Below, in pieces: positions 38,201-64,000 of a stretch of DNA of 64,000 nucleotides. Each line of letters starts with the position of its first letter. The stretch's first letter is position 1. This DNA comes from Onchidella celtica (taxonomy: Eukaryota > Mollusca > Gastropoda > Systellommatophora > Onchidiidae), in NCBI GenBank assembly GCA_963931925.1, contig OZ007581.1, forward strand, positions 17,912,450-17,976,449, in the 5' to 3' direction. The translations under genes were made by a program, and so were the position numbers. A model generated the notes under the pieces. That model ran no database searches, was not told the DNA's origin, and was given only the letters and a program-made list of their open reading frames with translations.

Positions 38201-41200
38201 TGCATCATATGAAAACAAGATTATTTCTAAAGTCACAAGGAATGACATGCAAGACCCATGCGTGTGGATATCTAATGCCCCTACTCCCAAATACCTCTTT
38301 TAACTGCTGGGAAACTGCATGTACCAAATAGCAACTGAAACAGTGCACTTCCTTTTCGCACATTCACTTTACTGATAAAGTAATTCTTCATACAAACCTT
38401 CGTGAAAACCTTCTGCCTTGTACTTTCCTTGAAACAGTTGGTGGACTGGGTTTTCGTGACTCCGAGCAGGGACCGTGCTATGGAAATAATGGGGCAAAGA
38501 TGATAATACTGCCTGGAAAAAAATCCAGGCTCCTGGTTATCATTATCACAATTTGACACAAGTTCTCACAAAGTAATATCTTCAGGGTCATTCCGCAACT
38601 GCCTAAGTCATGTTTTGGTGTTTTTTTGAAAATCAATGAAAACTGTTTACATCGAATATAATGGCAGCTGTTTTTAGGGGAACAGTACTATAGAAAGCTT
38701 TAACTGAAAAGTGAACACAACTCAGTATTTTTCTATTTGGCTTTGTAATTAGACTTCGCTCCCCTAGCAACAGTCTAAAATGGTGATTTAGATGGATGTG
38801 GGCTTTCATTTAAGGTCAGCTTAAACCCCTAAATGGATTCTTAAAGGAAATTGATTCCATAACCTTTTCTTAATATTAGTATGGGATCAAAACAGCTGAG
38901 AAACATGCATCAACACCTCTTTCATTTCAAATTTGGGCAAAATGGGCAGGAAAGGGGCCCGACGTGCATGAAAATTAGTGAAATCGAAGGGGGCACTTGT
39001 ACCATGATATCTTAATAATGGATCATGTTACACCCTTGAAACTCTCTGAGAACATTAATGACATCCAACCAAGTGTATTGAACCTCAGAAATTTATGGTA
39101 GGGTATAAATACTTATGTAGTGATATTTTAAAACATATTTTTGGAAAAATAATTGTTTTTGATAGGGGTAGGGGTAAGCGAAATGACTTTATCCTGAATA
39201 TTAATGAGTTTAGTTTCCATCTTTTAGGTTTAGTTGCTGCAGTATACTTAAGGTAAGCTGCATGCAAAGTTTGATTGAATTCTGTCCATAACTTTTTGAG
39301 ATATCATGGTACAACTGCCAACAAATGAACGAAAATGCAGTTCTGAGAAAAACGTGAAAATGTTAATAAATCCTGTGTAACTTTTTCTTTTCTTACCCTA
39401 ATGGCCCCCAGCTACATATGAATCATCATCAGCATGTTCTGCAGCAGCCTGAATCCTTTTCTCAGCTCTCTTTTCCTTTTTGTCCTTTGCTTGGTTGGTC
39501 TCTGAAGCCTTCACACGTTTACTGTCAATCGCTCGTAATCCCTCAGAACAATATGATCCAAATTTCAACCCGAGGTCTTCAAACACTGCTTTCCTTCTCG
39601 ACTCTCCATCATTAAACACAATAGTGGCCTCATTCACAGCTATTTCCAGTCTATTTCTTCCCACAAATGTGGTTTTGGGGCACCTGTCCCAAATCAGATG
39701 GTGGAATGCTTCATTCGCATTTTGTGTCCCTCCGTGAACGCACTTCTTCAACAAGTCCTCTCCTCCCAGAAAGCTGAATACCGGTTTGATGGCCTCAGTA
39801 ACAAAGTCTGGTAACCTATTCTTTTCTTTGTTATCTTCTCTGCACCATGTCCCACAGTCTTCATGTTCTCCTTTCCTGTACTTCCATATGGCCCACACTG
39901 ATTTCTTCATCTGTTCTAGGTTCCCGGCATTCTTCCGAATCGCACCACCGTAATGTCCTTGGATCCTCTTTATTGCATTCTTTGTCAACCGACCTGCGCC
40001 ACCTATTCCTTTGTATTTCTTTCCTTTCACCATAAATGTCTTGCTCTTGTTTTCATCAACCTTGTCCATCAATCTCTTGCCCATACGCTTCTGTATGTAC
40101 CCGCAGCATTCCAATTTGGTAATTTCCTTGTTTGAATAGATTGGAGGATCTGACACTGCCACATACTTATAGCTCTTGGAATCACCATCTCCAAGATATC
40201 CAGTGAACCGTAGGCCATGTACTCGCTCACTCCGTTGAAAAATTCTCTTCATGCCGTGGAGCTCCATTTGACCAGCCGAGCCCTCGTGATTCTGATTGCA
40301 GGCCACCTTATGGTTCTCTCCCCACTCAGCAAATTCCTCGGCAGACTTTTTTACTTTCATTTTCTTACACGAGTCACAGTGGTTGCTCATTGTCTCAGTG
40401 TCTACAACCTTTGACGGTATCTCCTTGTGCACAGATAGGCATGTTGCCACACCATTCTTGCTGCTAAAGCCCCGACGCTGCCATGTGCCATCACACGAAA
40501 CAGTAACATCTTTACCTCCAACAGCTTCTTTCAGTTGTTCCCCAGCTTTCACCATACTTTCTTTTGCTATCTTGCTCATTGAATCAGCAATTCTGTCTCG
40601 AAAAACTGAAGCTCTAACAGAGGAAACTGGTGGTGGCATGTCCATTGATGCTAAAAATCTCCTGCACTTTGTCTCATGGCAGCCTATTGAGAACATCGAC
40701 ATCAGCAAACGCAAATTCACATTTTCACTGTTGGTCAAAACCAAAGTTTCTTTACACAAAGTGCAAGTTAAAGTCAGCCTACTGTTGATTCCACTTAGTG
40801 TCTCTGATACATGATAGGTGTCTCCTTTACGTGAACAAGGAAAGCAAGCAGGACATGGGAATGCCTGAATAAAGTTGATAAGATCCTCGATATCGAACAG
40901 CCTTTTTCCGGACAACTTGACTGATTCATCATTAGATCTAGAAGTGCTGGCTGATAGATCTAGCTTCATAAAAGAAGATCCATGCTGGTGGTGTTCTTCA
41001 TTTGATTCAGAATCCATTTAAATTTTGAAAATCGGGTAATTAGGAAACGAATTATGGCCTGTTGAAGTTCATGCATATTTAATGAGGTAAATAAACTTGG
41101 TTGTCATGGAAATTAAAATTGAAAATAAAATACTTAAAACGAAAATTTTGTAAGTTTGTATGAAAGAAAGGGTGCAGAATAGGTTGGTATTTAGTATGTA

Positions 41201-44200
41201 GTGGTTTTTAGAATTCGCAATTTTTCATCCTAATTCATTATATTATGGGGTTTAAGCTGACCTTAAAAATTCATGGGTCAACGAAACAAAACAATGCAAC
41301 CGTTGAGCGGTACAACGTGATTCTTTGATTGAGGGGTGCATTTCATCTCAAAACACCAAAAAATTTACTTTGGCAATTATGGAATGACCAATATGATACA
41401 TTAGTTTAACAGCAAAGTTACTATTACTATATGATTAGCTGATGGCAATGTTGTGTATAAGAATTTTGTCTTTCAATCAAGATTTCTGCCAAACAAGATG
41501 TTCGACACTTCAATGTCTCATCTACCATATTTTCATGTGCTTTGAGAACCTTTAAGAGTTTGAAAACCTGTTATCACTCCACGGTGGTATGAATTGATCA
41601 TTGGGGAATTTGAAATGGCAGGAAAATCAAGAATTTTAAAAAAGACATACCTGGGGCAGCTGGGAATATTGAAAGCTCCTTCCAACCAATCTAACAACTT
41701 GTGCTGAAATTCACTCACATCCTGAAAATACACAATCAATCAACCATGAAGTTCATTATGAGTATGCATGTTTACATATCAGTATAAAAAAATCTGTTGA
41801 CAATACAAATAAATGCAAACGTATATCATCAAAAAACGTATCTATTTACTTTGTACTTGTATTGATCCATACATGGAAGTGTTATGTCTACTTTATCTCA
41901 TGGGACCTTGAACCTACATTTGCTCTTATAAAAATTTTTTCCATAATAAGTTAAATTTCGAATTTATCAACAAGTTTTTTTTCCACATATTGTAAATAGC
42001 ACTCATTTTCAGAATGAAAGCTAAATATACACAAAGAAGTAATTATGGATAGGTGTAAACCATGTTACCCAGTTCTCATATTTCTCTTTAATATCCATCT
42101 TGTTCCCTTCAACCAGTTTTCATAAAATGTTTATGGCAGGTTAAGTATGAGATGGAAAACCTGAAGGTTCCATAAATGTGTACAAGGTCCTACCTGTTGG
42201 CCATCAAGTACAGCTGTGGATGAGGCTTCTTTCAGAATATCTACTGCTTTGCTGGGATCAACATATTTTCTTTGAGAGCCCACCATCAGTGCAAACAACT
42301 GGCGTAATTCTGAAACAAACCTCAGGTTCCGGCTCACCTGCAAGAAAAAACAATCAGTTCATAAATTGTACATATCGATGGTGAAACTCGCAAACCGTGT
42401 AAGTCCAAAAGTAGGTCAACTCTGATTTCTTGCTAAATGGCACCACATGACAATTGTGCACCATCTACATCAATATTCTGTGATAAAACACCAATAGAAA
42501 CCTTTGTTTTAGTCATGTGTTTACTTGAATGGTTCTCAGACTGCATTTGAACAGCAAAATAGTTTTTTGCCATTTTCTCAAAACAATGGAATTTAGAGTT
42601 ACATGGTTTGCGAGTTTCACCGTCGATATACTGTGAGCGGAAACACTTGAGGTACTCAAATTTCAATCAAAATCCTAATCTGCAGAACAACAATCCAGTA
42701 CAGGTCAGTTCAGGCAATCACATTTAAACTGAACATCACAATTTGGAATACTGGGGGAACTTGCACTTGCACATTTTTCCTCATTACCTAAGTAACTTAT
42801 CCACAAAGACTGAAAATGGAATCCTTCTCCTCCTGAAAAGCATATTATACTTCTAGGCTGAATGTGCTTTCTTCTTAATGAAATGTGTTCTAACCAAACA
42901 AAATGGACCATCCGCCTTATATGATGGAATGTTGGCAACTAAACTTTGCTGGGTAACATACTGAAACCTGAGACAAGACATATGAGCCATTCTCAAAAGG
43001 TGGGTCTAGGCATAGTGCCTCTTTTTGTTCAACCCTGACAAATGGCAGAAACGAGCAAATTGTATGAAACCAAGTTTGCAGGACTGAGAAATGACCAAAT
43101 AGATAGTGTGAGATAGGAAAAAGACCAAATTCTACAATTAAAAGAGAAAAATATTGTTGACTGTGGAAATGCCTTGTTTTTCGTCATTTTTTGTTGCATC
43201 CCGAGGTGTCTATTTTTACATGTGAACCACAGAAACTGAAGCAATAAGGCACTCAAAGGGTGGACAAGTGAAAAGAAAAGAGGAGTTTACATGAAACATT
43301 TCAATCTTTATTTTATTCTACTTTTTTAAATAGAGAAGGTTTAAAAATGCAGACTTGGGTGTAACAGGGTGTGTCACAACATCACTATTTTTGTTGGAGT
43401 CATGCGTACCTGGTCAGCTGGCCAGAGTTAATCATGAAAAAACACCCAGACTTTGAGTATATAGTTCTACGAGTGTATGCAGTGAAATAAAAAAGCTCTC
43501 TGTGACTGAGGCTTCATGCAGAAGACCAAATTAAGGTACTCGTACACATGTGTGTCAAATGTTACGTACAAGTCTTCTCCCCTGTCGGCGTTCAAAATTC
43601 GTTCCACACATTTGTATTTACGATATACGGAACTACGCCAGACTAACTCTTCATTGTACTGAAAACAATTATTACATCGCCACTCAACAACGAGAGCTCT
43701 CGATCCAAACACGTGTGTCAGCACAAAGAAAGCGATGACGTGCAAGTGGGTGTTACGTGCGAGTGAGCGCATGGTTAGCTCGGTCGGCAAACTGCGGGGA
43801 ATTTCTCAGTTGGAAAGACTTATCATCATTCTGTGTGGCAGACCTACGAAGACAGGCCCATAAACGTGCCGGATTTATTTGCGATGATAATTTCTCGCCC
43901 ATAATGGGTAAGTATGACATACTAGACTTGAGTGTCACCAGTTACATCGGAGATTATAATTTGTACGTCATAGTCATTCAATGGTTCAACATGTGTTCAC
44001 AACCAATTCAGTGTTTATCTAATCGGAATTGGGTACCTTGATAATGTTTAGAACGTGGCAATCATCTTTAAAGTTAAAATCATAATAAAAACACTGTACA
44101 CTATGCTACTTGCACGTAACTTAATCCATTGTGACACCCAACACACATGGGTCATTGTTACATGCAAGATCTGACAAGACAGGATTGAAATGGTATTAAT

Positions 44201-47200
44201 TATTGGTATAGATCTAGGCTTGGCTAGATCTTGTTTCTTCTTTTTATTATAGGCAAAGCTCCAGATCTAGTTCTAGATCTAGTTTTTAGATCTGCAGCAT
44301 GTTTCAATAAGGACTTTAGGTGTGTCTTAAAACTGCTTTTATCATACTTTTGAAAAGTGATTCATTCATCTAAAATTGTGAAACATTGAAATAATAATAG
44401 AGTTAGAAATTTGCCAGTGTATGTATATAATGTTGCACTTCATGTCATGCTTGAACTTCATGAAAAGACAGTGTTAGTGGACATGGGCTATATTATTTTA
44501 ACTGAATGTGTAGACTCCATGTATCCAAAGAATGCACTATGCCTGCCGATTCAAGGAATAGATTTATTTTCTGACATGGACTCGAAACGCAACCTGAGGC
44601 TAAGTAGTAAGATTAATAACTTGATTTATAACTTTTCCCATTTACAAAACTTTTTCCAGATATTCTAGAGTATGCAAAATGACTTTTTAGAATTTTACCA
44701 ATGTGATTATAAATAATATGAATGTGGTTCTATGTTTAACTTGAGAGCTCTGAATACAAAGCATAATTAAAGGACATGTGTATCCAATAGACCATGAAAG
44801 GTGCAATGTGGCCATTATTGTGCTGATGCGCCGTAAAACCAAACTCAAGCTCATCACATTTCTCTCTTTCTCTCTCAGAACGACCCAAGCGCACACCTGC
44901 CAGATAGCTTACCTATCAGGCCGAGTGTATTGAGAAATTGAAGAAAGAGAAGAAGCAAGAGCAAAACAAACGGTATAGACAGAGAATAAGAGATGATCCA
45001 CTTCTGTACCAGGCTGCATGTGCAAAGGACCAGGAAAGAGCGCGGCAATACAGGAGATTACTTTCAGAAGAACAAAAGGCTTATCAGAGAGAAAAGAGTC
45101 GACTTCGCATGGTTACTTACCGGTGAGATATTTGATTATTGTAGCAATCTTTTGAGCAAAAAATGCAGCTTTATGAATAAAATAACATAATTAACTTTCT
45201 CTTTTCACAACTAAATGTACACAGTTCAGTTCTTACCATGACAGAGAGTAAAATTCTTGAGAATGTATCCTTAATCTCTGCTGTGCCTGCAATTTCCATC
45301 GTGAAATATGATCAACTTTTTTGTTTTTAAATAGTGTAAAGCTGAAGCTAGTTTCTGGTGTATAGTTAATTAGTTAAATTAGATTAGCTGTTCAGTGTTC
45401 TATCACCATGTTGCTTGGTGCCTGGAATTTCCATTGTGAAATGTGATTGACTTTTTGGTTAATTAGTGCAAAGCTAAAGCTAGTTCCTGGACATTTAAAA
45501 TTTAGATTAGCTGTTCAGTGTTCTATCATCACGTTGCTCTGTGAAGGCAAGTTCCGTCATGAAATGTGATTATTTGGCTCGAACTAGTTCCTGATGTGCA
45601 ATGGGATTAGATCTAGATCTAGTACAAAAATTATTTTTTTTTACATAGATATTATATCCGTGTGAATGGAACTCGCCTGACATCTGGTGACAGAAGGCAT
45701 AATTTTCTTAACAACAATAAATGTTACATTTAGTGTTGAGAATGTGTGTGATAACTGACATCATGTCTAAGATTGTTTCCAGTTCGTGTTTCCATCTAAC
45801 CTTTCCTCTTTCATCTTCCCCAACACCTCTTTTCTTTTACTCAAGGGCCAGGACAAAGCGTAAGAAAGAACAGGACAAGGTCAGGCAAACAATGGCTGTG
45901 TGACCAGCTCCACAGACGAGGGCGTCATCAAAGCAATTGGAGGAGAGGAAAGAGAAAAACAGATTAGCCCAACAGGGGAGAAGGGCAAACATGTCATCTC
46001 AGAAGAAACGGCGGGAGAAGGAGAAAAGGGCAGAGTACAGGAAGCATAGGCGTGGAGTGCTTAATGACGAATCTACAATATCAACAAGAACAGACGACGT
46101 TCACGACCACATACCCTCACCATCTGCATCACGTTCAGCAACCTGCCGCATTAAGAAAAAGCTTGGTTCAAAGTTTGTGTTAGCGTTAAAGGGGCTTGTT
46201 CGCTCAATTCATAAGAAAACTCCACAAAAACTGTCTCACCATGGGATCATTTATGAATCCCCAAGGAAAAAGAAAGCAAGTAATTTTTCTGATGTTTTAG
46301 GCAATTTGAAGAGACAAAGGGACAAAAGTAGTCTGAAATTGAAAAAACTCTTTGTGGAAACTGCCAATCAAGACGATGTGAAAAAAAGTAGGTTTGAAGC
46401 CACAAAGTAAGTCTCTCCCTTATGTGAGAACATCAGATGTTAAGGGAGACAAAGTAAGAAAATATTTTAATGACAAATCCCAGTTTGTGTCAGGAAAGAG
46501 GGCAGTATCAAGAAAATCACTGCAATCCAAAAAAATCTTGGACAAAGCCATGATACATCTCTACAGTGATTTCATCGCAGAACATGGCTCTTTAGTGTCT
46601 AAAGCAACATTCTTTAAAAAGCGCCCAAAAAATATCATATCGTTCACAAAGACACCTTTCAGGCAGTGCCTTTGTGAACTCTGCCTAAACCCTATGATGA
46701 AGATGAAAATTTTGAACAGACATTTACAGGCTAAAGTGGAGACACTGAAAGATATGATAAATGTGACATTGTGTGAAGGTGAACACTTCTTATGTATGAA
46801 GAGAGGGTGTACTATGTGTGGGGTGGGAAAATTTGATCATTTGCTTTCTGATGTAGATATGACTATGTGTGTAGAATGGCAGAGGTGGGAAAAAGTTACA
46901 AAGAATGGCTCGTCCAGAATAGACCTAGTCAAGAAGGAGGGATCCTTAGAAGAGCTTATGAGGGAACTGAAGGGAGAGTTGGGAAAGCTGCCAATGCATG
47001 ACTTTACATATCGCTGGCAGCGAAACCAGTACCAGGAACTTATTCAGAATATGCCTGACAATTGGGCTGTGTTGACACTAGACTTCGCAGAGAACTACCT
47101 CTGCAAGCAACAAGACCAGCCACAGTCAGCCTACTTTGGTTATAACCAAGTTACAGTTCATCCGTGTGTGCTCTACTATCGCTGTTCCTGTGGAGAGAGG

Positions 47201-50200
47201 AAAACTGAAAATATAACATTTTTCTCTGATGTACTGGTCCATGATGCCAACATGGTCGAGGCCATTCAGAGAATTACAATGAGCCATCTACCACAAAATA
47301 TAAGTAAATTGTGCATCTTTAGTGATGACTGCGCAGCACAATACAAGTCAAAACTTCCCTTTTTTTATCTTTCAAAATATATAAGTGAGAATCTTAAAAT
47401 TGAACGGTCTTTTTTTTGGCGCTCGCCATGGGAAAAACCCCTGTGATGCCCTTGGTGGCCTTATCAAGCAATCAGCCTCTAGAGCTGTTCAGTCACGGCA
47501 GTGTACTATTCAAAATGCTTCTGACTTACATAAGTTTGCTGTGGCAAATTTAGAACCACAGTCTGATGGAAGTGTGTGCATGCACATGACACGGACACAT
47601 TATCTGCTGAACAAAGAAAGTATTCCTCAAAAAAGTTCTTCTGGGTTAAAAACTCTCCCGGGAACAAGGGAAATTCATAGTTTGATTCCTGCCGATGGGG
47701 GGATGCTCATCAGAAACTTATGTTTTTGCAGTTTCTGTGTTCAGGGTTCTTTCACTGAGTGCCTAAATAAGAATTTTGTAGACAGTTGGAAACATGCGCA
47801 CATTAGTGGCTCATCCAAGCGAACAGCATCAGCTTCTATTCTGAATGATGCTTTCATTGAGTCTCTTAACAGTTGCAGTGCAGCACATAGTATTCAACCA
47901 AGGGATCAGTTTTTTGATGGATTACTTCAGAAATTTGCAGCATGCGACTCTTACTCACAGCTGAAATCTCTTGTGTGTGCAACTGACATTGAGCTGTCAA
48001 ACTATGATCTCCCAGCTTTTTGTCGCAGGAATATTTTTGATTGTGGTGCCACAGTGGACAAGATGGCTCTCCGTCACATGCCTGATGATAGAGAAGTTTT
48101 TCCGCTTTCAATTATTCCAGATGGCAACTGTTTGCCGCATAGTTTGAGTGTTTTTGTCTTCGGTAGTCAAGAAAGACATGTGGAGATTCGATGCAGAATT
48201 GTCACTGAAATGGTGAAAAACTCTATGTATTATCTGTCACTGCCATCTCATGAGCTGAATTTAATTGTGCGTTTATCCAATAAATATTCTGATGATGTCG
48301 TTCAGACATACCAAGATGAAGTTCTTGAAATATGCCGGGTGGGTACTTACATGGGTATGTGGCAGCTCATGGCAGCGACAAATGCGTTATCTGTACCAAT
48401 ATTGTCTGTTTACCCTGACCTAGGGCAACAGTGTTACATTAAATTTTTCAACAAAATTCTGTATCCCCAACATGGCGATAGAAGAGCATCCTGTTATTAC
48501 ATCATCCTGTGGACGTCATCAAGAACTGACATGAGGCCGGAGTACTGGGTTGCTAATCATGTTGTACCGTTATTGCCTTTAACTTCCATGACTGGAGAAG
48601 TAGAGGTAGTGGAAGATGGTAGTGAACAGTAGAGGTTGTGGAAGATGGTACTGGTAGTGAGCAGTGGTGGTGGTGAAAGTTAGCAGCCTGAAGGGGTGCA
48701 AATAATATTCAATATCCCATAAACTATAGTATCTTTTGAATAGCTGAGCATGATAAAGCAGCAAGTTTTTATGTTCATCAGGCACCCTGTACCTTAATTT
48801 TTGTCTCTGGAGAAATTAGTCCAACTTATCAAAAGAACTGAATGTTTTTCACTTTTTGTTGGATCGATGATTCAGATCTGGAAAGCTACTGTTGTTTATA
48901 TTGTGTTTGTAATTTTAAAGCTATAGTAAACTTCTGGTGGTCTGACAGTGACCATCCAGTTTTGTGAGCGAAGACAATTGACATAAATGCTGTTGGGCAT
49001 TTGGGTGCGTGTTGGGATTGAAAAGATTTTATGTTCGAGAGGCCTGCTTCCATTGTTTAATTGTATGTCCTATGTTGGTGCTCATTTGATGTATACAATT
49101 GTGGTGATTGCTACAAATGGTATGCTAGATCTGATTTCCTTCACTGATTTTTAATTTACTTGATTACCACAGAGTGTCTACTATTATTAGTATTAAAAGT
49201 CTTCTGTCCATATCAAATTTTGTTGCATGTTTTCTGTATTAACTTGAAATTTCTTGTAAAATTTCAGGCCTTAAAATCTGCGGTATACTCCTGCAGCCTT
49301 TATAATCCATTGTCAAGACAACAGATACTGAATTACATAAAAAAAAATAGCCTAGAGGGAAGTTCAACAGTGTGTTCAATAAGTGTGTCACAGTTACATG
49401 CGAGCCTTCTTTTCATGTCCTGAAGCACAAGAAAGTCACAGCACTGAAAAATGGAGCAGGTTTAACTTCTCTACAAAGATATAAAACAAAAGCCACTGCA
49501 AAACTTCAATGAGATTGCTTATCTTGTTTTCAGTAGAAACTGAAAGATTGTAGTTTGTCACGGGTGTAACCGTGACACACACACATACATAAAACTCTAG
49601 AGAATGTCTTAAAATCCAACATTTTTTTGTTTTATCTCATAACAATACATATTAAATAGTATTGTGGAGGCATATAAACCAGTGTTGTGTCTCATTACCA
49701 TTCACAATGAGTAAATATGTGGGTCATCAGTTACACCCGAGCCAAGGGAACCCGCTCTCTTTAATCAAGTTTACTGCACAACTGTCTTGCTCAGTTATCT
49801 TCTAAACTTGAAAAACCAACAAACAACTTCCTAAAGATTACATAAAAGTTTACAAAACTGAAATAGTCCTTGTTTTAAAATTTGGGTACATTGCAACATT
49901 TTTATGCCAACCTTTTGAGAATGACTCATATATTAATTAGTGAAATGAAAAAATAAAGTTTTTCTAGGAGATGGTGCAAATGCTGGCTGCTAAAAACAGT
50001 TTTCCAGCTCAAATTTGCGGACAGAGCAGTACCTATTCAGCTGGCCAGGTTTTGAACTTCCTCAGCCTATAGCAGGCCCTGGAGCTGTCAAACTTAATAT
50101 TACAAACTGTTATTAACTGTGTTAAGTTATTATACCAACAAATGTTCTGCACTTACTTGAAAAAGCAGTCCAATCTTTATCTCATTAGCACTATATTAAT

Positions 50201-53200
50201 ATGTAAATCATTTTTATGTGTGACTGTTTGTTGGTTGCCATCTAGTGTTAGCAAAGGACAATATGATTCCCAACTCTTTACAACTACTAGCAATGATACA
50301 AACCTCATTTTCCACCAGTGACCGACTGTTGTAGTTCAACACAAGATCCCTGAATTTTCGTAAGTGAAATAACGACTGAAATGAAACATAAGTACATGTC
50401 AATCATCAAACAAAAACATATTCTCCTCCTCCCTACAATTAATGTGACAATCATAAGATAAATGGATATGAAGACACTGATTTAATTCACATGGCTTAAA
50501 AGAAATGTTGACATTTTTTATAGTTAAAAAAATCCAAGGCAAAAATGTTACATCGCAAGTTATCCGCAACTTGCTGCTGATAAAAAGAACTGAAAAGTGA
50601 AATTGGCCTTTCTTGTCATTTTGTTTAATCATCGACTTCCTCTTGAAGAAAAGAAAATGAAGATCACAGTTATCTGATATGTGACTAATGTATTGCTGAC
50701 AACAACCAGGATAAGGCTGCTATCAGTTGAAGCATCAGCCAGAGATGAACATTCCCTCTTACTGTCAGCAACATTCCTATTCCCATGCTGGTAAACACAG
50801 ACATAGGCGGTCTAACGCACTCAAATGGCTCTATTGTTGAGCATGGTTAGAACAAGTTGCTGATAAAGTTAACAGAGACTTTTGGAAACTTTCCTTCGTC
50901 AAAACAGAATGCATCATCCCACCGTAACTTAAGTGATGGTCAAAATGTGATGAATTCAAGTGATATCATTTGGTCAGAAAGACATAATCAATGGTAAGTT
51001 TGAGACTGAGTTTAGATTTTATCGCACATCAGTTTGACATCACTCTTGCTGTATTAAATGACGTTAAGATTGGGCCCATTTTTTAGAATATGAAATATAC
51101 TTGCAGAGCAGGTTATTCGAATGATCCAAATATTTCAATGCATTTAGAATAGTTTACACAGAATAACTCCATCATCATCATCATCATTGCCTTTCTCACC
51201 CTGGATCAGGGTATAGGCCACCAACAAACACCTTCCATCCCTCTCTATCATGGGCCAGCCTCTTTACATTATTCCAAGTCTTTCCGCTTCGTTGCACATC
51301 ATTTTCTCTGGCTCTTCTCCACGTTCCGCGCGGCCTTCCTCTTGATCTCTTGCCCTGGGGATTCCAGTCCAATACCTTCTTCGTGATGCTGTTTCCTGGC
51401 CTCCTGAGAGTGTGGCCGATCCATCTCCATCGCCTCCTACCAATTTCCTCTCTGACTGGGTTCTGTCTTGTTCTTTTCCATACAATTTCATTGCTGACCT
51501 TGTCTGTCCATCTGATCTTAAGTAGCTTCCTCAAACATCTGTTGATGAAAACTTGGATTCTCTTTATGCAGGCCTGGGACGCATTCCAAGTCTCACATCC
51601 ATACAACAGGACTGACTTCACGTTCGAGTTGAATATCCTCAGCTTTGTTTTTAGAGATATATCCTTGGTTCTCCAAATCTTGCTTAAGGATGTGAAAGCT
51701 GCCTGTGCCTTTCCAATTCGTGCTTTGACTTCTGCCTCTGTTCCTCCCTTATTGTCGATGATACTACCAAGATAGCAGAAGGACTCTACATCTTCCAGTG
51801 GTTGATCTCCTACTGTGACTTGTTCGCTTAGGGGTGCAACAATTTTTAGGACCTTCGACTTCGCGGGATGTATCCTCAATCCAATAGATTCTGAAATTTT
51901 GTTTAGAGCTGTAGTCTTTGCTTGCATCTGGTCGTGTGTGTGCGACAATAGTGCCAAGTCATCTGCAAAATCTAGATCGTCCAGCTGTGTCCATGGGGTC
52001 CATTGTATGCCATTTCTTCCTCCACTGGTGGTTTCTTTCATAAGCCAATCAATCACCAGGATAAACAGAAATGGGGACAGCAAACAACCCTGCCTAACAC
52101 CAGTCTTGATATCAAAGCTGTCAGTAAGCTCACCATCATGTACGACTCTGCAACTTGTCCCCTCGTACATGCTCTTGATAAGATTCACCATCTTCTCTGG
52201 GATTCCATAATGTCTCAATATTCTCCACAGTGTTTCTCTATCGATGCTATCAAAGGCCTTCTCGTAGTCAAGGAAGTTCACTATCAGTTGGGAGTTCCAC
52301 TCTAGCGACTGCTCTAGTATGATTCTCAGCGTGGCGATCTGGTCGGTGGTTGATCGATTACTCCTGAAACCAGCTTGCTCCTCGCGAAGTTTTTGGTCTG
52401 TTGCATTCTGTATTCGCTTGAGAATAATCCGATTGAAAACCTTTCCTGGGATGGAGAGAAGTGTGATTCCTCTGTAGTTACTACAATTGCTGAGGTCCCC
52501 TTTTTTTGGGAGCTTCACGAGGTGTCCTTCCTTCCAGTCCTTTGGAAACTTGCCTCCGATCCAAATCCTCGAGAATAGTGAGTGCAGACCCTCTGCAGCC
52601 CCAGCAGCATCTGCCTTCAGCGCCTCTGGTGGGATCTGGTCTGGTCCAGCTGCCTTGCCTCGATTTAACTGCTTTATGGCATCATTAATCTCTGCTTTAG
52701 TCGGAGGGTCGCAACTGATCGGTAAATCATTTCTTGCGGGTAGAATGTCGGGTGGGTTGCTTGGTGGAGGTCTGTTCAAGAGGCTGTTAAAATGTTCTAT
52801 CCATCTTTTTGCCTGAGCTTCCTTTCCAAAAATAGCCTTCCTGTTGTAATCCTTGACAGGAACTTCAGGTTTTCCATATTTTCCAGCAAGAGTCTTTGTA
52901 GTCTGGTAGAAGATCCTCATGTGTCCTCCTGTTGCTGCCTTCTCTGCTTTCTCTGCTAACATTCCTATGAACTCCTCTTTGTCTTTTTTAATTGATTTTT
53001 TGACCTCTTTAGCTGATGCTCGGTACTCTTCCTGGTTACCAACTCTTGAGCTTCTTGTACGACTTGCATTTACCCGTTCTTTTAGGTCTCTTCTTATCCT
53101 TATCAAGTCCAGTGATTTTTGACTGATCCATTCCTTGTGTTCCACTTTCTTTTCCCCAATAACATCCTGACATGTCGATGTAAATACTCCTTTTACCTTA

Positions 53201-56200
53201 GCCCAGTGAGTCTCCAAATCTACCGTCTCTTCGAGGTCAACAAGGGGTTTGAATCTATTCCTCAGTGTCAGCTGGAACTCTTCCTTCTTGTCTCCATCCA
53301 GAAGGCTCACTTGAAACTTTCTCCTCTTTGTTCCTGCTCTGGTACCTTGTTTCTTGAGGCGGAGTTTGAGTCTTGCCAGCAGCATGTGATGGTCAGATCC
53401 AACATCTGCTCCTCTCTGTACTATGACATCCTCTAGTGAACGTCTGAATCGTCGGGTGATGCAAAAGTGGTCAATCTGATTTTCAGTTACTCCATCCGGT
53501 GAAATCCAAGTGGCCTTATGGATCCTCTTGTGTGGGAATACTGAACCTCCAATCACATAGCTGTTAAATGCGCAGAAACTTGCAAACCGCTCTCCATTCT
53601 CATTCATTTGTCCTAAACCATTGCACCCCATAATGTCCTCATACCCTGTATTGTCCTGTCCTATCTTGGCATTGGCGTCTCCCATTATAATGTTCACATC
53701 TTTTCTTGGCAATGTGTCAACTATTTCCTGAAGCTGGTTGTAGAAGTCGTCCTTGTCCTCATCGGTTGCTTCATTTGTTGGGGCGTATATCTGCACAATG
53801 TTCATGTTGATGTTCTTGTTCTTAGTAGTAAATGATGCCAATATAATTCTCCTTCCATAGGGTTCCCATCCCCTCAGTGACCTCTGGGCGTGCTTGCTCA
53901 AGATGATCGCTACTCCTTCTGTATGCTTTTTGTCCTCCCTTCCAGAATACAAAATCTTTTCCCCAGTATTAAGTTGTTTCAGTCCGGACTGTATCCAGCG
54001 GGTCTCGCTAACTCCAAGTATGTGCAGTCTGTATCGCCTCATCTCCATTGTAACCTGGGCACTCTTTCCTGCTTCATACATGGAGCGGACATTCCACGAC
54101 GCAATCCGGAGTGACTTGCTTGATGAAGGAGCAGTCGGGCCAGTGGCGTCCTTTCGGCTTTGTCCATTGTCCTTCATTGAATCTACAGGTGCAGATGCTC
54201 CCCCTTCTCCCAAGATAAAAGACTGATTTGAAGTATTTGCTTGTGTTTCTGTAACTGGTTTATTTTTACAGGGTGGGTAGTTGGCCCACCGCCAACTGGC
54301 TCTTCTCGGGAGACCAGGACCTTTGCACCTTTAGTCGCCTCTTACGACACGCAGTATCACGTCAGATGTATTCTCTGCTGTCCCTCTTCTACAAGAGAGC
54401 CCCGCATCTGCACGGGCGAGAATAACTCCAGAAACACCTTTATTTAGAAAGCTGTGTAGAAAGTTTCTTCTGCACCTCACTGAGATTCCATAATGTATGA
54501 AATGCCAGACTCTCAAGATCTATACGCCATATATATAATGACAGACAATGAATATGAATTGTGACTTTCCCTCCAGTCACTCCTCAAGTACCTGAATAAC
54601 CGCACTAAACCAACATGTGTTGCCAACATTCTTCAGGCCTACCGGCCATCCATCCTGCCTCCTTCGCTCATGAGGGTTCAGGGGGTCAAAAAACCAGAGC
54701 TCCCCACGTTTTCTCTTTGTACTCCCTTTACTCTCAGCAAGACTGGCCTCTAATACTCTGGAAATGGCACGACACAAAAAAAACAAAAAACATTACATTT
54801 AAACAACACACTCTTTGTACTCCTTTACTCTCCCCAAGACTGGCCTCTAATACTCTGGAAATGGCATGACACAGGAAAAAAAACCCATTAAATAATACAC
54901 TTTTTGAACTCCCTTTATTCTCAGCAAAACTGGCCTCTAATACTCTGGAAATGGCATGACACACACACAAAAAAAAAAAAACATTAAATAATACACTTTT
55001 TGTCCTCCCTTTACTCTCGGCAAGATCGGCCTCTAATACTCTGGAAATACCACAACATAAACAAAAAAATTTTTTTTTAACCACCATTAAATAGCACCCT
55101 CTTTGTACTCTGTTTACTCTCAGGAAGATTGGCCACTAATACTCCGCAAAAGGCATGCCAACAAAAAACAAATTAACAAATAATACACTGAAAGTAGTAA
55201 GCTGATCTCCCACTATCAACAGATCTATTAGCAATGCAAGTAGTTTGGTGACTCATCAGTGACAAAAGTATGCACCATGGGAACACTGGGATGGTTTGAG
55301 GCAAAGTAGGTGATTTTCCTTATCCTTCATTTTCATTTTTCAACAATGCACTATTTTCACTGACAATGACTATTCACTATGCACACAGGTTACTACCTTA
55401 AATTTAGCACAGAGGTAGAATAGAAATGACTAGTCCATTAGCTATGAACTGTGCCACCCGTCTTTGGCAGTTCTACTAATCCCTGCCTAATGAACTTGCT
55501 TTGGATCACAGAAACAAGCAATTATTGTTCTGTAAAGTATAGTAAGGATGATATTCATATGTCAACCGTGGCATATAATACTATGTTTGTATCTATTTAC
55601 GGAAGCATTTTAGATGGTTCAAACTCTAACAGAAGGCTGAGGAACTGTTAGCAATATAATACAGTTGAGCACGAAAAACTCGAATTCTTCGGGGTGGCTT
55701 CATCGTTTGGGTTTGCCGAATTTCGAGGAATACGTGAAGCATTAATTATGAAGTATTATTGTTGCATATCCAAGGAACCTAATACAGCTTACAACATGTA
55801 CCATGGATTACCTCCTTTAACTCACTGACGCCCGTCATCACACAGGTGCGATTTTCTCACTGCGACGGCAGCTGCCCGTCATCGTATATGTGTGATTTTA
55901 CTGTCAACAATGAATAGCTCGTAAAGGTAATGTAATAGTGCGATGACTGTGGCACGGGTGAATTCTAGAGTCATTTCCCTTTCACTGAGTACCCGGATGA
56001 GCTCTCTAGCGTGAAAACTAACGAAGTTACGATCGTTTTTTGTACTGCTTCTCCCCCTTGCTAAAAATCCTATGGTTGTTCTGGCTTCAAGTACAAAAGT
56101 ACAAAAAATGTGTAGATCTAGCTCTATACGGCCTTCTAATGATGCAGTAGCCTCTCAGGGTAGTAAACCAGATAGTATAACAGCTACATATAGACCTAAA

Positions 56201-58699: not shown

Positions 58700-59776
58700 A
58701 TTACTCATAATTTCCTTATACAGACCTGCCTACTTCGAAAGTTAATAATTAGTAATGGATTATCAATTTTTAGTAATTTCAGATAAAAACTAGTAATCCC
58801 TTGTAACGCGCACGGAGTAACACTAAGAAAGCAAACAATTGCGTGCCATACTATGTCAACAAAGATAATTGTTATGCATGTTTATTTGGTGTTTGTTGAT
58901 TTGATGATGTTGCGCATTGAGTTTGAGGAGGGGTAAGTAAGAAAAGTCCGAGGAACACAATGTGCAAAAGGCATAGGTAGGAACGACACGCAACGTTACA
59001 ATGCAAGGCCATTCTTCAGTGTAGACTTGTCAAAATGTCTGTCTGCCTGTCTTCTTCATCTTATTTGGTGGCGCAGACAATCCTTAAATCTAAAAAAAAT
59101 CAGAAGTAGGGAATACTCGGGCTGTACGATAAAAATCCACGTGCTTGCAGTGTTCAGCGAGAACCAAACAACGTCAACTCAATGAAACGCTCCCGCTTGA
59201 GCTTCACAATTGCCAGGGAGGGGCCGAGATCTAGATCCGTGGAATGACTTTTTTTAAAATTTGGAATCAAACTGAGCCAAATGAAGGAATATTTGAAGCA
59301 AATAATGAACTTAGCGCTCGAAAGAGCAAAACCCAATCGGACAAACTGGCAAACTACAGGTACAAGAGGTCAAAAGTTTATTACAACTTCTGGTTCACAT
59401 CGGCAACTCTGTGATTCGAATTTCAATAAAGAACTCCATCCATTTGTACCGCATCGCCCGTAATTCCACAAAAATGTTGAAAATTCGTAGAAATTCGGAG
59501 GATTTCGTAGTTCCGTAACGAGGATCGGAATTTCGTATAAATTACGGAAATTTCATAAAAGTAGGCAGGTCTGCCTTATCAATGATTTACATATATGCAA
59601 AAATTCTCAAAATAAAGGTAAGCAACTGTTTATTGACAGGTCGTGCATCATTCTATCACACATCACTTAAACAACCAGTGATGTGGCAGCAGATTAGTAG
59701 AAATATTTTCAAAGTATTTCATGAAAATGATCAGAGTACCACTACTAGTCTTCCAGGAATCTTAGTTTCATTATGA
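58700..59776. other. Non-coding stretch upstream of the first recognised deubiquitinase exon
   Basis: No exon of the missing N-terminal part could be recognised here. It contains TTCGGAATTTCGTA-type repeats around 59475-59560 and a GAGATCTAGATCC motif at 59228. The gene's promoter is therefore not placed. Confidence 0.5.
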
Positions 59777-61175
59777 CCTGTTGGAACCATTTCAATCTGC
59801 TTACAGAAGTAACCACAGTACTGAAACTGCACTATTAAGAATCATGAATGACATATTAGTAAAGGCAGATTCTGGAAATATTACTCTGCTAAATTTGTTG
59901 GATCTATCAGCAGCGTTCGACACCATCGATCACGAAATCCTGCTCAGAAGGCTAGAAACATCGTTTGGAATCAGAAGGGTCGCCCTTAAATGGGTCGAAT
60001 CTTACCTGTCAAATCGCCACCAATTTGTTGTAACCAACAAAATAAGATCTTTTTCTTATGCGCTTCAGTATGGCGTACAAGGCTCAGTGCTTGGTCCTAT
60101 TTTGTTTACTATCTATACTATTCCACTTGTACATGAAATAAAGAAATTTAATTTACAATATCATTTCTATGCTGATGATACCCAGCTCTACAGTTCTGCC
60201 TTGCCATGCGATGTTGACAGCCTTCTGCAGCAGGCTGGAAACTGTATAACAGAAATTAAAAGCTGGATGAACCAAAACAAACTGGCACTAAATGAGGATA
60301 AAACTGAGGTTATTTTATTAGGCCGTGAGCGGGTTCTGCAAGAAGCGGACAGAACTGAGATGATAATTGGCACTAATTCAATAGAAATTTCAAAAAAAGT
60401 AAAAAACCTAGGGGTTTACATTGATTCAAATCTTTCTATGTCATCTCAGGTTAGTCACCTCATTCGTATTCTATACATGGAAATCTGGAAAATTGGTAAA
60501 ATCAGACATCTTATTTCAACTGAAACTGCGGCTGTTTTAGTAAATTCTTTTGTACTTTCAAAGCTTGACTATTGCAACTCCCTTTTGGCTGGAATTTCAC
60601 AAAAAAATATTAGAAAACTCCAAATTGCTCAAAACAATGCAGCGAGACTTGTTTTGAAGAAAAAGAAAAGAGATTCAGCACTGCCACTTCTGCAGAGTTT
60701 GCACTGGCTGCCAGTCGAGAAAAGAATAATGTACAAATTGTCATCCATTTGTCACAAATGTGTCAATAATACTGCTCCATCGTACCTAGTTGATTTAACT
60801 GATTACTATGTTCCATCTCGTCAACTAAGATCATCATCTGACACTACAAAATTGAAAGTACCTAAAATGAATCTGTCCACTGTAGGAGAAAAGTCCTTTT
60901 CATTTCTTGGCCCTACCATCTGGAACACTCTTCCAAAGACAACCAGGGAAATTAATGACATTGGTTCTTTCAAACGCCATCTGAAGACCCATTTCTTTCA
61001 GACAAACTAGGCTAGGTGTTTTTCGGCAGCAACAATAGTAAATATTTTTGAATTTCTTTTGTGTATGCGCGTGTGTGTGTGTGTGTAAGAGTTTGTTAAA
61101 GCGCCCAGAGCTTGTCATCGACGGGGTTGGGCGCTATATAAATGCAATATATTATTATTATTATTATTATGATAA
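59777..61175 (+). mobile_element. 5'-truncated CR1/L2-like non-LTR retrotransposon
   Basis: It begins inside the reverse transcriptase and runs through the C-terminus to a 3' tail with GGGCGCTATATAAATGCAAT and (ATT)n at 61131-61172. Truncation at the 5' side is the usual outcome of target-primed reverse transcription. Confidence 0.85.
59781..61010 (+). CDS. Partial reverse transcriptase, 409 aa (CR1/L2-like)
   Basis: Reads EPFQSAYRSNHSTETALLRI, LLDLSAAFDTIDHEIL, VQGSVLGPILFTIYT, YADDTQLY, then WMNQNKLALNEDKTEV, LDYCNSLLAGI, LHWLPVEKRI and ends FKRHLKTHFFQTN and TAA. The catalytic Asp residues of motifs A and C are present. The endonuclease and the first RT motifs are missing, and the usual GVPQGS has lost its Pro (YGVQGS). 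No true start codon is expected; the frame begins at the truncation. Confidence 0.92.
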   Translation: MEPFQSAYRSNHSTETALLRIMNDILVKADSGNITLLNLLDLSAAFDTIDHEILLRRLETSFGIRRVALKWVESYLSNRHQFVVTNKIRSFSYALQYGVQGSVLGPILFTIYTIPLVHEIKKFNLQYHFYADDTQLYSSALPCDVDSLLQQAGNCITEIKSWMNQNKLALNEDKTEVILLGRERVLQEADRTEMIIGTNSIEISKKVKNLGVYIDSNLSMSSQVSHLIRILYMEIWKIGKIRHLISTETAAVLVNSFVLSKLDYCNSLLAGISQKNIRKLQIAQNNAARLVLKKKKRDSALPLLQSLHWLPVEKRIMYKLSSICHKCVNNTAPSYLVDLTDYYVPSRQLRSSSDTTKLKVPKMNLSTVGEKSFSFLGPTIWNTLPKTTREINDIGSFKRHLKTHFFQTN

Positions 61176-61541: not shown

Positions 61542-61659
61542 ATAAAGTAAAGATAAGTAGAAAACTTACTTGTGATAATATAGGTCTAGATGCTTAGTAG
61601 TTATTGATTAATCTCCGTTTAGAAGAAAGATCTAGATCTAGTAGAAAGAAACTAGGAAG

Positions 61660-64000
61660 ATGAATTTCGGACATTTAGAGCAATTTGATGAACGCAATGA
61701 GACATTTACTGAATATCAAGAACGTGTAGAACTATATTTCATTGCTAATCAGATTGATGAAGAAAAGAGAAAGAAAGCCATTTTTCTGACCTTAGTTGGA
61801 CCACACCAGTACCGGCTCTTGAGAGACCTATGTGCGCCGACCCCGATTACAGAAAAATCATTCATCGACCTTTGCACCTTAATGAAAGAACATTTTGAGC
61901 CGAAACCACAGAAATATGTTCAGAGGACTAAATTTGAAAACCGCAACCGCCATCCTTCTGAAACTGTTAGCCAATACGTGGCTGCACTTCGACACCTCAG
62001 CGAATTCTGCGAATTTGGCAGGAGCCTTGAAGAGAGACTTTGTGAACGCATCGTTCGTGGCATCAACGATGAGAAGATCCAGAGACGCCTTCTTTCTGAA
62101 GTAGACCCAAACCTTCAGAAAGCTATACAGATCGCCCAAGCAGTGGTGACGTCAGAAACCGGGGCAAAGGACCTACATGCCCACGACAAACACATTACCA
62201 CTACCGGTAACTCGTCTGGTCTTCATCATCTTCACCGAAAGCCTAACTGGTATGACCACAATCGTAAACCGACTCCAGCAAACACGTCAAAATCCAATAC
62301 CGGATCTAAGACAGCTCCTTCGACAACACCGTCGACATCATTGAAATGCCATCGTTGTGGCATGGATCATCGTGGTATTCCCTGCAAATTCACAAATTCT
62401 AAATGCTTCCACTGTGGAAAAATAGGCCACATCGCAAAAGTGTGTAAATCTCAAAAAGCATCCCCTTCGTCTGCTTCATTTTCTACGGTTACGCCTAAAC
62501 ACGCTCCCAAACAACACCATAATGGAGGAAGGGAAAGGTATAAATGGAACTATTCATCACGCTCCTGTTACAATATTGATAATGATTCTAGCAACGATTC
62601 TGAATTGTTTGGACTGTACCACACTCGTCCAGACCCCAATTCCAACAAAGCCATTTGGATACCTTTAAATGTAGAAGGTAAGGAGATATTATTTCAATTG
62701 GATACTGGTGCCTCCGCTACTGTTATACCTATGACCATGTATTGCGATTTATTTTCTTCATACGAGTTGAAACCAACCAAAACGTCACTTAGAACCTACA
62801 CTGGTGACAAGGTACACATCCTAGGACAGTTATGCATGAACATTCAGTACAGTGAACAATCACTTGAACTGCCATTGATAGTGGTAGATTCGCCGGGACC
62901 GCCGCTTCTAGGAAGAAACTGGCTTCAGGAAATTAAGTTGAATTGGAGTAGTTTATTCCATACTACATCTCTGCATGACGGGTTCCGATCAATAACGCTC
63001 AGCTCAACACTATCCAAATACAGCAGTGTTTTCAACTGTGACGCTGGTCTATTGAAAGATCACCTGCAGCATATCAGTCTTAGAGAAAATACCTACCCCA
63101 TCTTCAAGAAAGCCAGACACCCACCATTTGCTCTTCGCAATAAAATTGAAGAAGAGTTGGACCGCCTTGTTCAGACCAACATTATCGAAAAGATAGAACA
63201 TTCTGATTGGGCAACACCGATTGTTCCAGTCCTCAAAAGTGACTCTACACTCAGAATTTGTGGAGATTACAAGGTTACCGTGAATAAAGTCATAGCCAAA
63301 GAAGGACATCCAATACCGCGAATCGATGAATTAGCGAACAAGTTAGCTCATGGTAAGAAATTCTCCACCATTGACTTCAGTCATGCATACACACATATTG
63401 CACTGGATATTGAAAGTCAGAATGTAACAACCATCAATACCCACTGTGGTCTCTATAGGTATAAACGGCTTCCATATGGAATATCATCTTGCCCCGCCAT
63501 TTTTCAGCGTACTATTGAGTCTGTGTTCAAGGATATTCCCGACACTGTCATTTATTTTGACAACCTCTATCTGACGGGCTGCAATGACGAGGATCATTTG
63601 AGAACGCTCAAAATGGTTTTGAACCGTTGCAAGGAAAAGGGACTCAACATCAAGCGCTCCAAATGCGATTTTCTGAGAGATGAAATCGATTTTCTTGGCT
63701 ATCGTCTCACAAGACATGGAATTCAGCCACAGCCAAAGAAAATAGAAGCAATCCATAAGGCCCCTGAACCAGTCAATGTTCATGAACTGAAATCTTATCT
63801 CGGAATGCTGAACTACTATTCGAAATTCCTACCGAACCTTTCACATGACCTCTCACCTCTGTATGATTTGCTGAAGAAGGACACCAAATCGAAATGGACA
63901 TCAAAACAAAAATCAGCATTTGAAAAGTCCAAGAAACTTATTTCTTCAGATAAGCTCTTGGTACATTATAACCCACAAGTTCCTGTTGTGTTAACTTGTG
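61660..64000 (+). CDS. Gag-Pol polyprotein of Gypsy element (gag, zinc knuckles, protease, RT; partial)
   Basis: An open frame of 780 codons from ATG 61660 to the edge, without stops. Order: gag-like region starting MNFGHLEQFDE; two zinc knuckles (CHRCGMDHRGIPC, then CFHCGKIGHIAKVC); aspartic protease LDTGASATVIP (Asp codon at 62701); reverse transcriptase with DYKVTVNK, FSTIDFSHAYTHIALD, LPYGISSCPAIFQ and LGYRLTRHGIQ. The catalytic box reads YFDN instead of the usual Y-x-D-D: AAC at 63562-63564. If real, that change should abolish polymerase activity of this copy. RNase H and integrase would lie beyond the edge. Confidence 0.92.
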   Translation, partial: MNFGHLEQFDERNETFTEYQERVELYFIANQIDEEKRKKAIFLTLVGPHQYRLLRDLCAPTPITEKSFIDLCTLMKEHFEPKPQKYVQRTKFENRNRHPSETVSQYVAALRHLSEFCEFGRSLEERLCERIVRGINDEKIQRRLLSEVDPNLQKAIQIAQAVVTSETGAKDLHAHDKHITTTGNSSGLHHLHRKPNWYDHNRKPTPANTSKSNTGSKTAPSTTPSTSLKCHRCGMDHRGIPCKFTNSKCFHCGKIGHIAKVCKSQKASPSSASFSTVTPKHAPKQHHNGGRERYKWNYSSRSCYNIDNDSSNDSELFGLYHTRPDPNSNKAIWIPLNVEGKEILFQLDTGASATVIPMTMYCDLFSSYELKPTKTSLRTYTGDKVHILGQLCMNIQYSEQSLELPLIVVDSPGPPLLGRNWLQEIKLNWSSLFHTTSLHDGFRSITLSSTLSKYSSVFNCDAGLLKDHLQHISLRENTYPIFKKARHPPFALRNKIEEELDRLVQTNIIEKIEHSDWATPIVPVLKSDSTLRICGDYKVTVNKVIAKEGHPIPRIDELANKLAHGKKFSTIDFSHAYTHIALDIESQNVTTINTHCGLYRYKRLPYGISSCPAIFQRTIESVFKDIPDTVIYFDNLYLTGCNDEDHLRTLKMVLNRCKEKGLNIKRSKCDFLRDEIDFLGYRLTRHGIQPQPKKIEAIHKAPEPVNVHELKSYLGMLNYYSKFLPNLSHDLSPLYDLLKKDTKSKWTSKQKSAFEKSKKLISSDKLLVHYNPQVPVVLTC

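Follow-up and report, generated by a model that had tools for sequence, protein, structure and literature searches.

A degenerate, probably cut-and-paste transposon of Onchidella celtica whose relatives join a predicted DDD transposase to an A20/OTUD1-like OTU domain

A 64,000-nucleotide stretch of the genome of the gastropod Onchidella celtica (assembly GCA_963931925.1, contig OZ007581.1, forward-strand positions 17,912,450 to 17,976,449; hereafter "the window," which lies on the contig we call C15 in this 1.14-Gb genome) contains what we regard, with a probability of roughly 0.75, as a decayed copy of a DNA transposon of the cut-and-paste kind, whose protein, in relatives with open frames, has four parts: a basic N-terminus, a cysteine-rich region, a transposase core built around three aspartates (DDD), and a C-terminal OTU domain. 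That figure covers the anatomy and the cut-and-paste reading, not the target of the OTU domain. The fusion of transposase and OTU in a single frame is found in relatives of the element in the same genome, not in the window copy itself.

The terminal inverted repeats (TIRs) of the window element are identical at 19 of 21 positions (92% over 25 nucleotides if the flanking ATAT is counted), and both the termini and the ATAT outside them are present as given in a preliminary description made from the sequence alone. According to that description, termini not shared by other copies would have spoken against a transposon; instead, they recur genome-wide. The element's first kilobase has at least 40 match rows in the genome (best 40 of 174 candidates scored) and its last 900 bases at least 42 (best 40 of 130), both counts being lower bounds in which the window itself and some copies listed as two separate pieces are included. 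This recurrence indicates that the termini did not arise by chance. A long copy on C16 (L040), interrupted near its 5' end, is about 95% identical to the window element, and the remaining rows are 69–86% identical.

Both ends could be resolved in 16 of 30 3'-end loci, taken as the best-ranked matches to the last 900 bases, and the 4-bp flanks are identical in 11 of these 16: eight are ATAT, with one each of ATTT, ATCT, and ATAA. Longer flank identity was seen over five bases in no copy, over six in one and over eight in one. On its own, ATAT might be taken for a piece of the repeat, but the non-palindromic cases show a true target site duplication (TSD). These 16 copies are short non-autonomous relatives (1,074–2,034 bp, mostly about 1.64 kb); longer copies would not fit in the retrieved stretches, so that the sample is no survey of length. 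As for long copies, the C16 copy is flanked by ATTT/ATTT and a 1050-amino-acid (aa) family on C10 by ATAT/ATAT, while for a 1014-aa family the view was limited to the 3' end, after which both copies have ATAA. The search for shared termini and clear target duplications that the preliminary description proposed has thus yielded both. A search for the empty insertion site of the window element brought up nothing apart from this locus's own two halves. Taken as a whole, the anatomy suggests that the transposase would bind the termini and excise the element, which would then be inserted into AT-rich targets, preferably ATAT, with a 4-bp stagger.

The domain fusion is carried by open-frame relatives. 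Genome searches with the two open reading frames (ORFs) of the window element (Table 1) gave 117 matches for the first (115 of 442 candidates scored) and 115 for the second (101 of 324 candidates scored); 38 transposase rows with frames of at least 700 aa and 39 of the 115 second-ORF rows, entered by hand, were used to count fusions. An OTU match reaching the catalytic His lies in the same frame in 26 of the 32 copies with a transposase-bearing frame of at least 800 aa, and the copies counted encode a single protein of 800–1,050 aa (stop to stop). The other six are five copies of an 817-aa family and one 852-aa copy, in which the OTU begins (NGDC) and the frame then ends, with more OTU-like sequence in another frame; relatives of this divergent lineage (P0010) elsewhere carry the OTU end (C6:8776504 and C1:111914973). 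Two copies of a 944-aa family, one on C1 (6,620 bp, with a 944-aa open frame) and one on C3, share the terminal core of the window element; their identity is 99.8% both in the middle 3.9 kb and in 481 bases at the 3' end, and 99.3% in 2.2 kb at the 5' end. Because these near-identical copies occupy different sites with different TSDs (AAAT/AAAT on C1, ATAT/ATAT on C3), they indicate recent transposition of an OTU-bearing family, and the presence of the same fusion in better preserved, recently moved relatives makes it a lasting part of the transposon lineage. No relatives were confirmed in the collections of viral contigs and of genome contigs (27 and 77 pattern matches, respectively). A separate observation concerns a further C-terminal domain, some 75 residues long (VGDFFxVDWEGKxYIAQV...SWExF), that looks SH3/Tudor-like by eye: it comes after the OTU in two families (P0001 and P0004) and occurs without an OTU in the 817-aa family (L055).

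The transposase core can be aligned across 10 families that are 20–39% identical to the first over their full length and 23–48% over the core. The alignment has 30 invariant columns and exactly three all-acidic ones, each of them Asp, in motifs of the types LDFAENY, SDG/SDN, and HGKxxxD, spaced D(79-84)D(36-41)D (residues between, 10 members). This is the layout of DDD transposases, for which catalysis is predicted here, and the spacing would fit an RNase H fold. Cysteine-rich motifs stand both before and after the core in the alignment, and the upstream region is probably zinc-binding. The two Asp motifs of the preliminary description, LDFAENY and the second one, both lie in the first ORF. 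Its "RNase H-like transposase" holds as to the DDD core, found in 10 of 10 members, whereas the fold itself is inferred rather than demonstrated. Searches of the 10 relatives against Pfam and NCBIfam matched no transposase family.

The C-terminal domain appears to be an A20/OTUD1-like OTU and hence a predicted deubiquitinase. A profile built from nine OTU regions (the window and eight relatives, excluding P0009, which has no OTU, and P0010, whose frame ends early) matched OTUD1 (E=2.2e-7), A20 (4.6e-4), OTUD5 (4.8e-4), and OTUD7B (2.2e-3) in the PDB over 36–84 positions around DGNC, and every match at E<=0.01 is a cellular deubiquitinase. The catalytic Cys (DGNC) and the C-terminal His are invariant in all nine regions. 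In Pfam, the window domain matches PF02338 at E=2.8e-4 (21.8 bits, below the cut-off of 23.3), as do three of the 10 relatives (best 1.7e-5), and five copies of a 1030/1031-aa family exceed the cut-off at 30.3 bits. The OTU-like domain of the preliminary description, with its DGNC and ANHVVPL (the latter in the second ORF), is borne out by these matches; that description had also made a failure to match OTU folds a ground for doubt, and here a sequence match to OTU families was obtained and a fold match was not. A20, OTUD1, OTUD5, and OTUD7B are cellular enzymes not known to carry a transposase. They are the best solved relatives by profile and share with the element an OTU domain with DGNC.

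These matches also bear on the suggestion, made in the preliminary description, that the OTU-like part is a protease that cuts a transposase polyprotein. All that speaks for it is that cysteine proteases are in general able to process polyproteins; the PDB matches are all ubiquitin-cleaving enzymes, however, no conserved linker site is visible by eye in the alignment, and the stretch before the OTU varies in both length and sequence. We consider such processing highly improbable and have rejected it on account of the ubiquitin-cleaving matches and the missing linker site; judging from sequence, deubiquitination would be the likelier role.

OTU-like sequences are also found in other settings in this genome. 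There are 86 OTU-domain matches at E<=0.001 (best 150 of 171 candidates scored), several of which lie in multi-copy 650-aa frames, suggesting other OTU-bearing mobile elements. Multi-copy 188-aa frames (C4:42263339, C1:92467577, C12:25351230, C2:49719209, C15:9939403, and C10:42325594) cover no more of the OTU than its C-terminal half (query residues ~303–410), with no transposase match nearby among the first-ORF matches listed; they are perhaps an exon of another element.

Might the OTU have been picked up from a host gene by chance and play no part at all? Transposons do take up host sequence and the window copy is dead, but the same domain order and catalytic residues are kept in families whose OTU parts share no more than about 30% identity with the first, an OTU is present in the distant P0010 lineage as well, and the transposase and OTU distances of eight families correlate (Mantel r 0.75; 10 of 5000 shuffles gave a value as high). 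We find chance capture scarcely credible; an accident in a single copy is rejected, given an OTU kept across divergent families and correlated domain distances. Instead, we read the data as one old fusion whose domains would have been mostly inherited together, with the OTU changing faster. Between the window and L041, the proportion of nonsynonymous differences (pN) is 0.45 in the OTU part, where synonymous sites are saturated, which speaks for constraint over a long time; in the transposase part it is 0.29. The ratio of nonsynonymous to synonymous change (dN/dS) is 0.31 over the whole second ORF and 0.53 over 237 codons of the first ORF for the two dead copies (window and C16), and 0.37 overall for L041 against L042; such short-term values cannot prove constraint because they involve too few changes.

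Several observations weigh against the reading of a transposon with an integral, working OTU. The window copy cannot make the protein: it has two in-frame stops (TAG and TGA) and a frameshift, and both of the Asp motifs in the first ORF are in a different frame from the HGK...D and OTU part in the second. Five of the 16 resolved copies lack identical 4-bp flanks (among them L021, with six identical bases, and L027 and L033, with an ATAT-like flank shifted by one base), and the C4 copy of the 1050-aa family has no 5' terminus. The transposase profile matched no relevant PDB chain up to E=10, and single-sequence AlphaFold models, made for the second ORF of the window and for its OTU part only, reached a mean predicted local distance difference test score (pLDDT) of 33. 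Seven of the 10 relatives, including the long L041 protein, have no Pfam OTU match at E<=1, although in most of the seven DGNC and His still line up with those of the other relatives. In the 944-aa family, the C1 copy departs from its two sisters at one well conserved Cys and at a position next to the catalytic His; each of these sisters has its frame broken by a stop, the C3 copy by one. The OTU part of the two dead copies has a dN/dS of 0.47 (about 15 changes) and the OTU half of L041 against L042 one of 0.68 (six changes); of 28 pairs among the eight families, 26 show higher similarity in the transposase than in the OTU, which diverges faster, and the trees of the two domains differ in detail. 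Finally, the multi-copy 817-aa family (five open copies, one of them retrieved, L055) has no OTU match, so that the OTU is either not strictly required or supplied in trans; this suggests a domain that is helpful rather than indispensable, or one that can act in trans.

The predicted gene model of the window copy (Table 1) joins three exons across GT-AG introns. By tblastn, a stretch homologous to exon 2 is found upstream in L041, L043, and L044, which represent three other families, and also in the C16 copy. The preliminary description treated 46394–48632 as a single product, which cannot be upheld: two frames part there at a run of eight T, and the spliced model contains stops. The C16 copy has the same run and stops of its own, and is a separate insertion with its own TSD (ATTT as against ATAT). 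Programmed frameshifting by slippage at the run is possible, since the run is common to two independent insertions, but both copies also carry stops. Given the shared run and the stops, both copies are dead and seem to go back to a source in which the run was present beforehand. It is also possible, and simpler in view of the stops in both, that they were inherited from a source that was itself broken and was mobilized in trans.

Table 1. Features of the transposon copy in the window (positions within the 64,000 nucleotides).
Feature	Position	Strand	Remarks
Whole element	42984..49927	+	6,944 bp, degenerate copy
Left TIR GAGCCATTCTCAAAAGGTGGG	42984..43004	+	19/21 vs right end; found in other copies
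Right TIR CCAACCTTTTGAGAATGACTC	49907..49927	+	match to left end
4-bp TSD, left copy, ATAT	42980..42983	no strand	flank read
4-bp TSD, right copy, ATAT	49928..49931	no strand	flank read
Predicted coding exon 1 (ATGG, then GTAAGT donor)	43904..43907	+	prediction only
Predicted exon 2, coding for a basic N-terminal region, with a TAG stop at 44905-44907	44879..45122	+	GT-AG borders, homologues
Predicted exon 3 with basic region, transposase and OTU; interrupted by TGA at 45901-45903 and a frameshift	45846..48632	+	
First ORF: Cys-rich (probably zinc-binding) region, predicted catalytic Asp 1 (LDFAENY) and Asp 2 (FSDD)	46382..47446	+	
Run of eight T, where two frames part; same run in C16 copy	47410..47417	+	
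Second ORF: HGKNPCD (predicted catalytic Asp 3), downstream Cys-rich motif, OTU domain	47385..48632	+	
A20/OTUD1-like OTU domain: DGNC (predicted catalytic Cys), WVANH (predicted catalytic His)	47889..48590	+	Pfam, alignment, PDB profile

How does this element relate to known transposons? Helitrons are not known to have TIRs or TSDs. Helitrons and Helentrons are rolling-circle HUH/helicase elements; OTU domains occur in Helitrons, and the OTUs of transposons are described there as untested for activity (PMC9741609). The likeness is limited to a transposon protein with an OTU-type domain, whereas the present element has TIRs, a TSD, and a DDD transposase, and is no Helitron by these features. 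Kolobok and piggyBac combine a 4-bp TSD, as seen here, with an RNase H-type transposase, the type predicted for this element, but their TSD is TTAA (PMC9587614), a sequence seen in none of the 11 resolved duplications here. Closer in architecture is Ginger1, a cut-and-paste transposon whose transposase carries a C-terminal OTU or Ulp1 domain, for which its authors suggest a link to DNA repair; members with OTU are recorded from Hydra, Aplysia, and an aphid (PMC2836005). The fusion of a transposase with an OTU is thus already published for Ginger1, which resembles the present element in that C-terminal OTU, in cut-and-paste movement, and in a 4-bp TSD. The Ginger1 transposase, however, is a Gypsy-type integrase (YPYY, H2C2 zinc finger, GPY/F), with a TSD of CCGG or CCGT and TIRs of 44–270 bp (PMC2836005), whereas here the transposase is DDD, not DDE, the TSD is AT-rich, and the TIR is about 20 bp. 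Pfam gave no integrase match for any of the 10 relatives at E<=1, and none for the ORFs of the window.

The preliminary description could not place the element in a named superfamily. This stands insofar as no Pfam transposase model matches, but by description the published definition of Sola (Sola1–3) fits: a DDD transposase, a 4-bp TSD, a length of mostly 2–9 kb, and TIRs of 11–1124 bp (PMC10741241). The family here has three all-Asp columns in 10 of 10 members (catalysis predicted), a 4-bp TSD in 11 of 16 copies plus the ATTT and AAAT cases, a length of 6,944 bp (6,620 bp in a relative), and a TIR of about 20 bp. The element therefore fits a Sola-like DDD transposon with an OTU, likened to Sola by published definition and not proven to belong to it. 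No report of an OTU in Sola, or of the peptide motifs of this family, was found among the literature matches listed.

What, then, would the OTU do for the transposon? Our tentative preference, held at somewhat less than even odds, is that it protects the transposase or transpososome from ubiquitin-dependent clearance; we place this ahead of a role in repair and that in turn ahead of one in silencing. The OTU may trim ubiquitin from the transposase itself or from proteins at the transposition complex, which would let the transpososome survive proteasomal clearance. It is possible, if rather doubtful, that the OTU acts instead at the repair or target step and, where the element leaves or enters the DNA, strips histones, PCNA, or repair factors of their ubiquitin. 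This would ease repair or chromatin access, as proposed for the same domain pairing in Ginger1 (PMC2836005), and a single-polypeptide fusion would bring the enzyme to the DNA, but the existence of a multi-copy family without OTU argues against it. The preliminary description had also suggested that the domain counters ubiquitin-linked silencing. Deubiquitinases of another class, VTD, carried by transposons have been discussed as aiding them in the male germline (PMC9741609), and the OTU changes more quickly than the transposase, which might be expected of a part that faces the host; faster change may, however, merely mean weaker constraint, and we regard a role against ubiquitin-dependent silencing or surveillance in the germline as unlikely. 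That the OTU shields the transposase is no less plausible.

Other mobile elements surround the transposon in the window. About 2 kb away, a 539-aa open frame on the minus strand (39398–41017) matches a Mutator-like transposase (Pfam PF20700, E=1.8e-52), and two long open frames of the long interspersed nuclear element type, with endonuclease and reverse transcriptase domains, lie at 19180–22464 and 51196–54330 (both minus strand). By eye, we also recognized a reverse-transcriptase-like ORF (59766–61010, plus strand) and a gag-pol-like ORF (61645–63999, plus strand) that runs off the window.

A bolder reading is that these families form a distinct and undescribed DDD superfamily, with an A20-like OTU as a founding part that was kept in very divergent families and is absent from at least one multi-copy family. 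We think this improbable but worth stating: if it is true, the host genome itself holds a natural comparison of transposons with and without the OTU. A second DDE/D-type lineage with an OTU, and with no integrase match, would independently support the idea that DNA transposons benefit from ubiquitin editing, and the presence in one genome of recently moved open-frame relatives together with an OTU-free family makes the question of what the OTU does a testable one.

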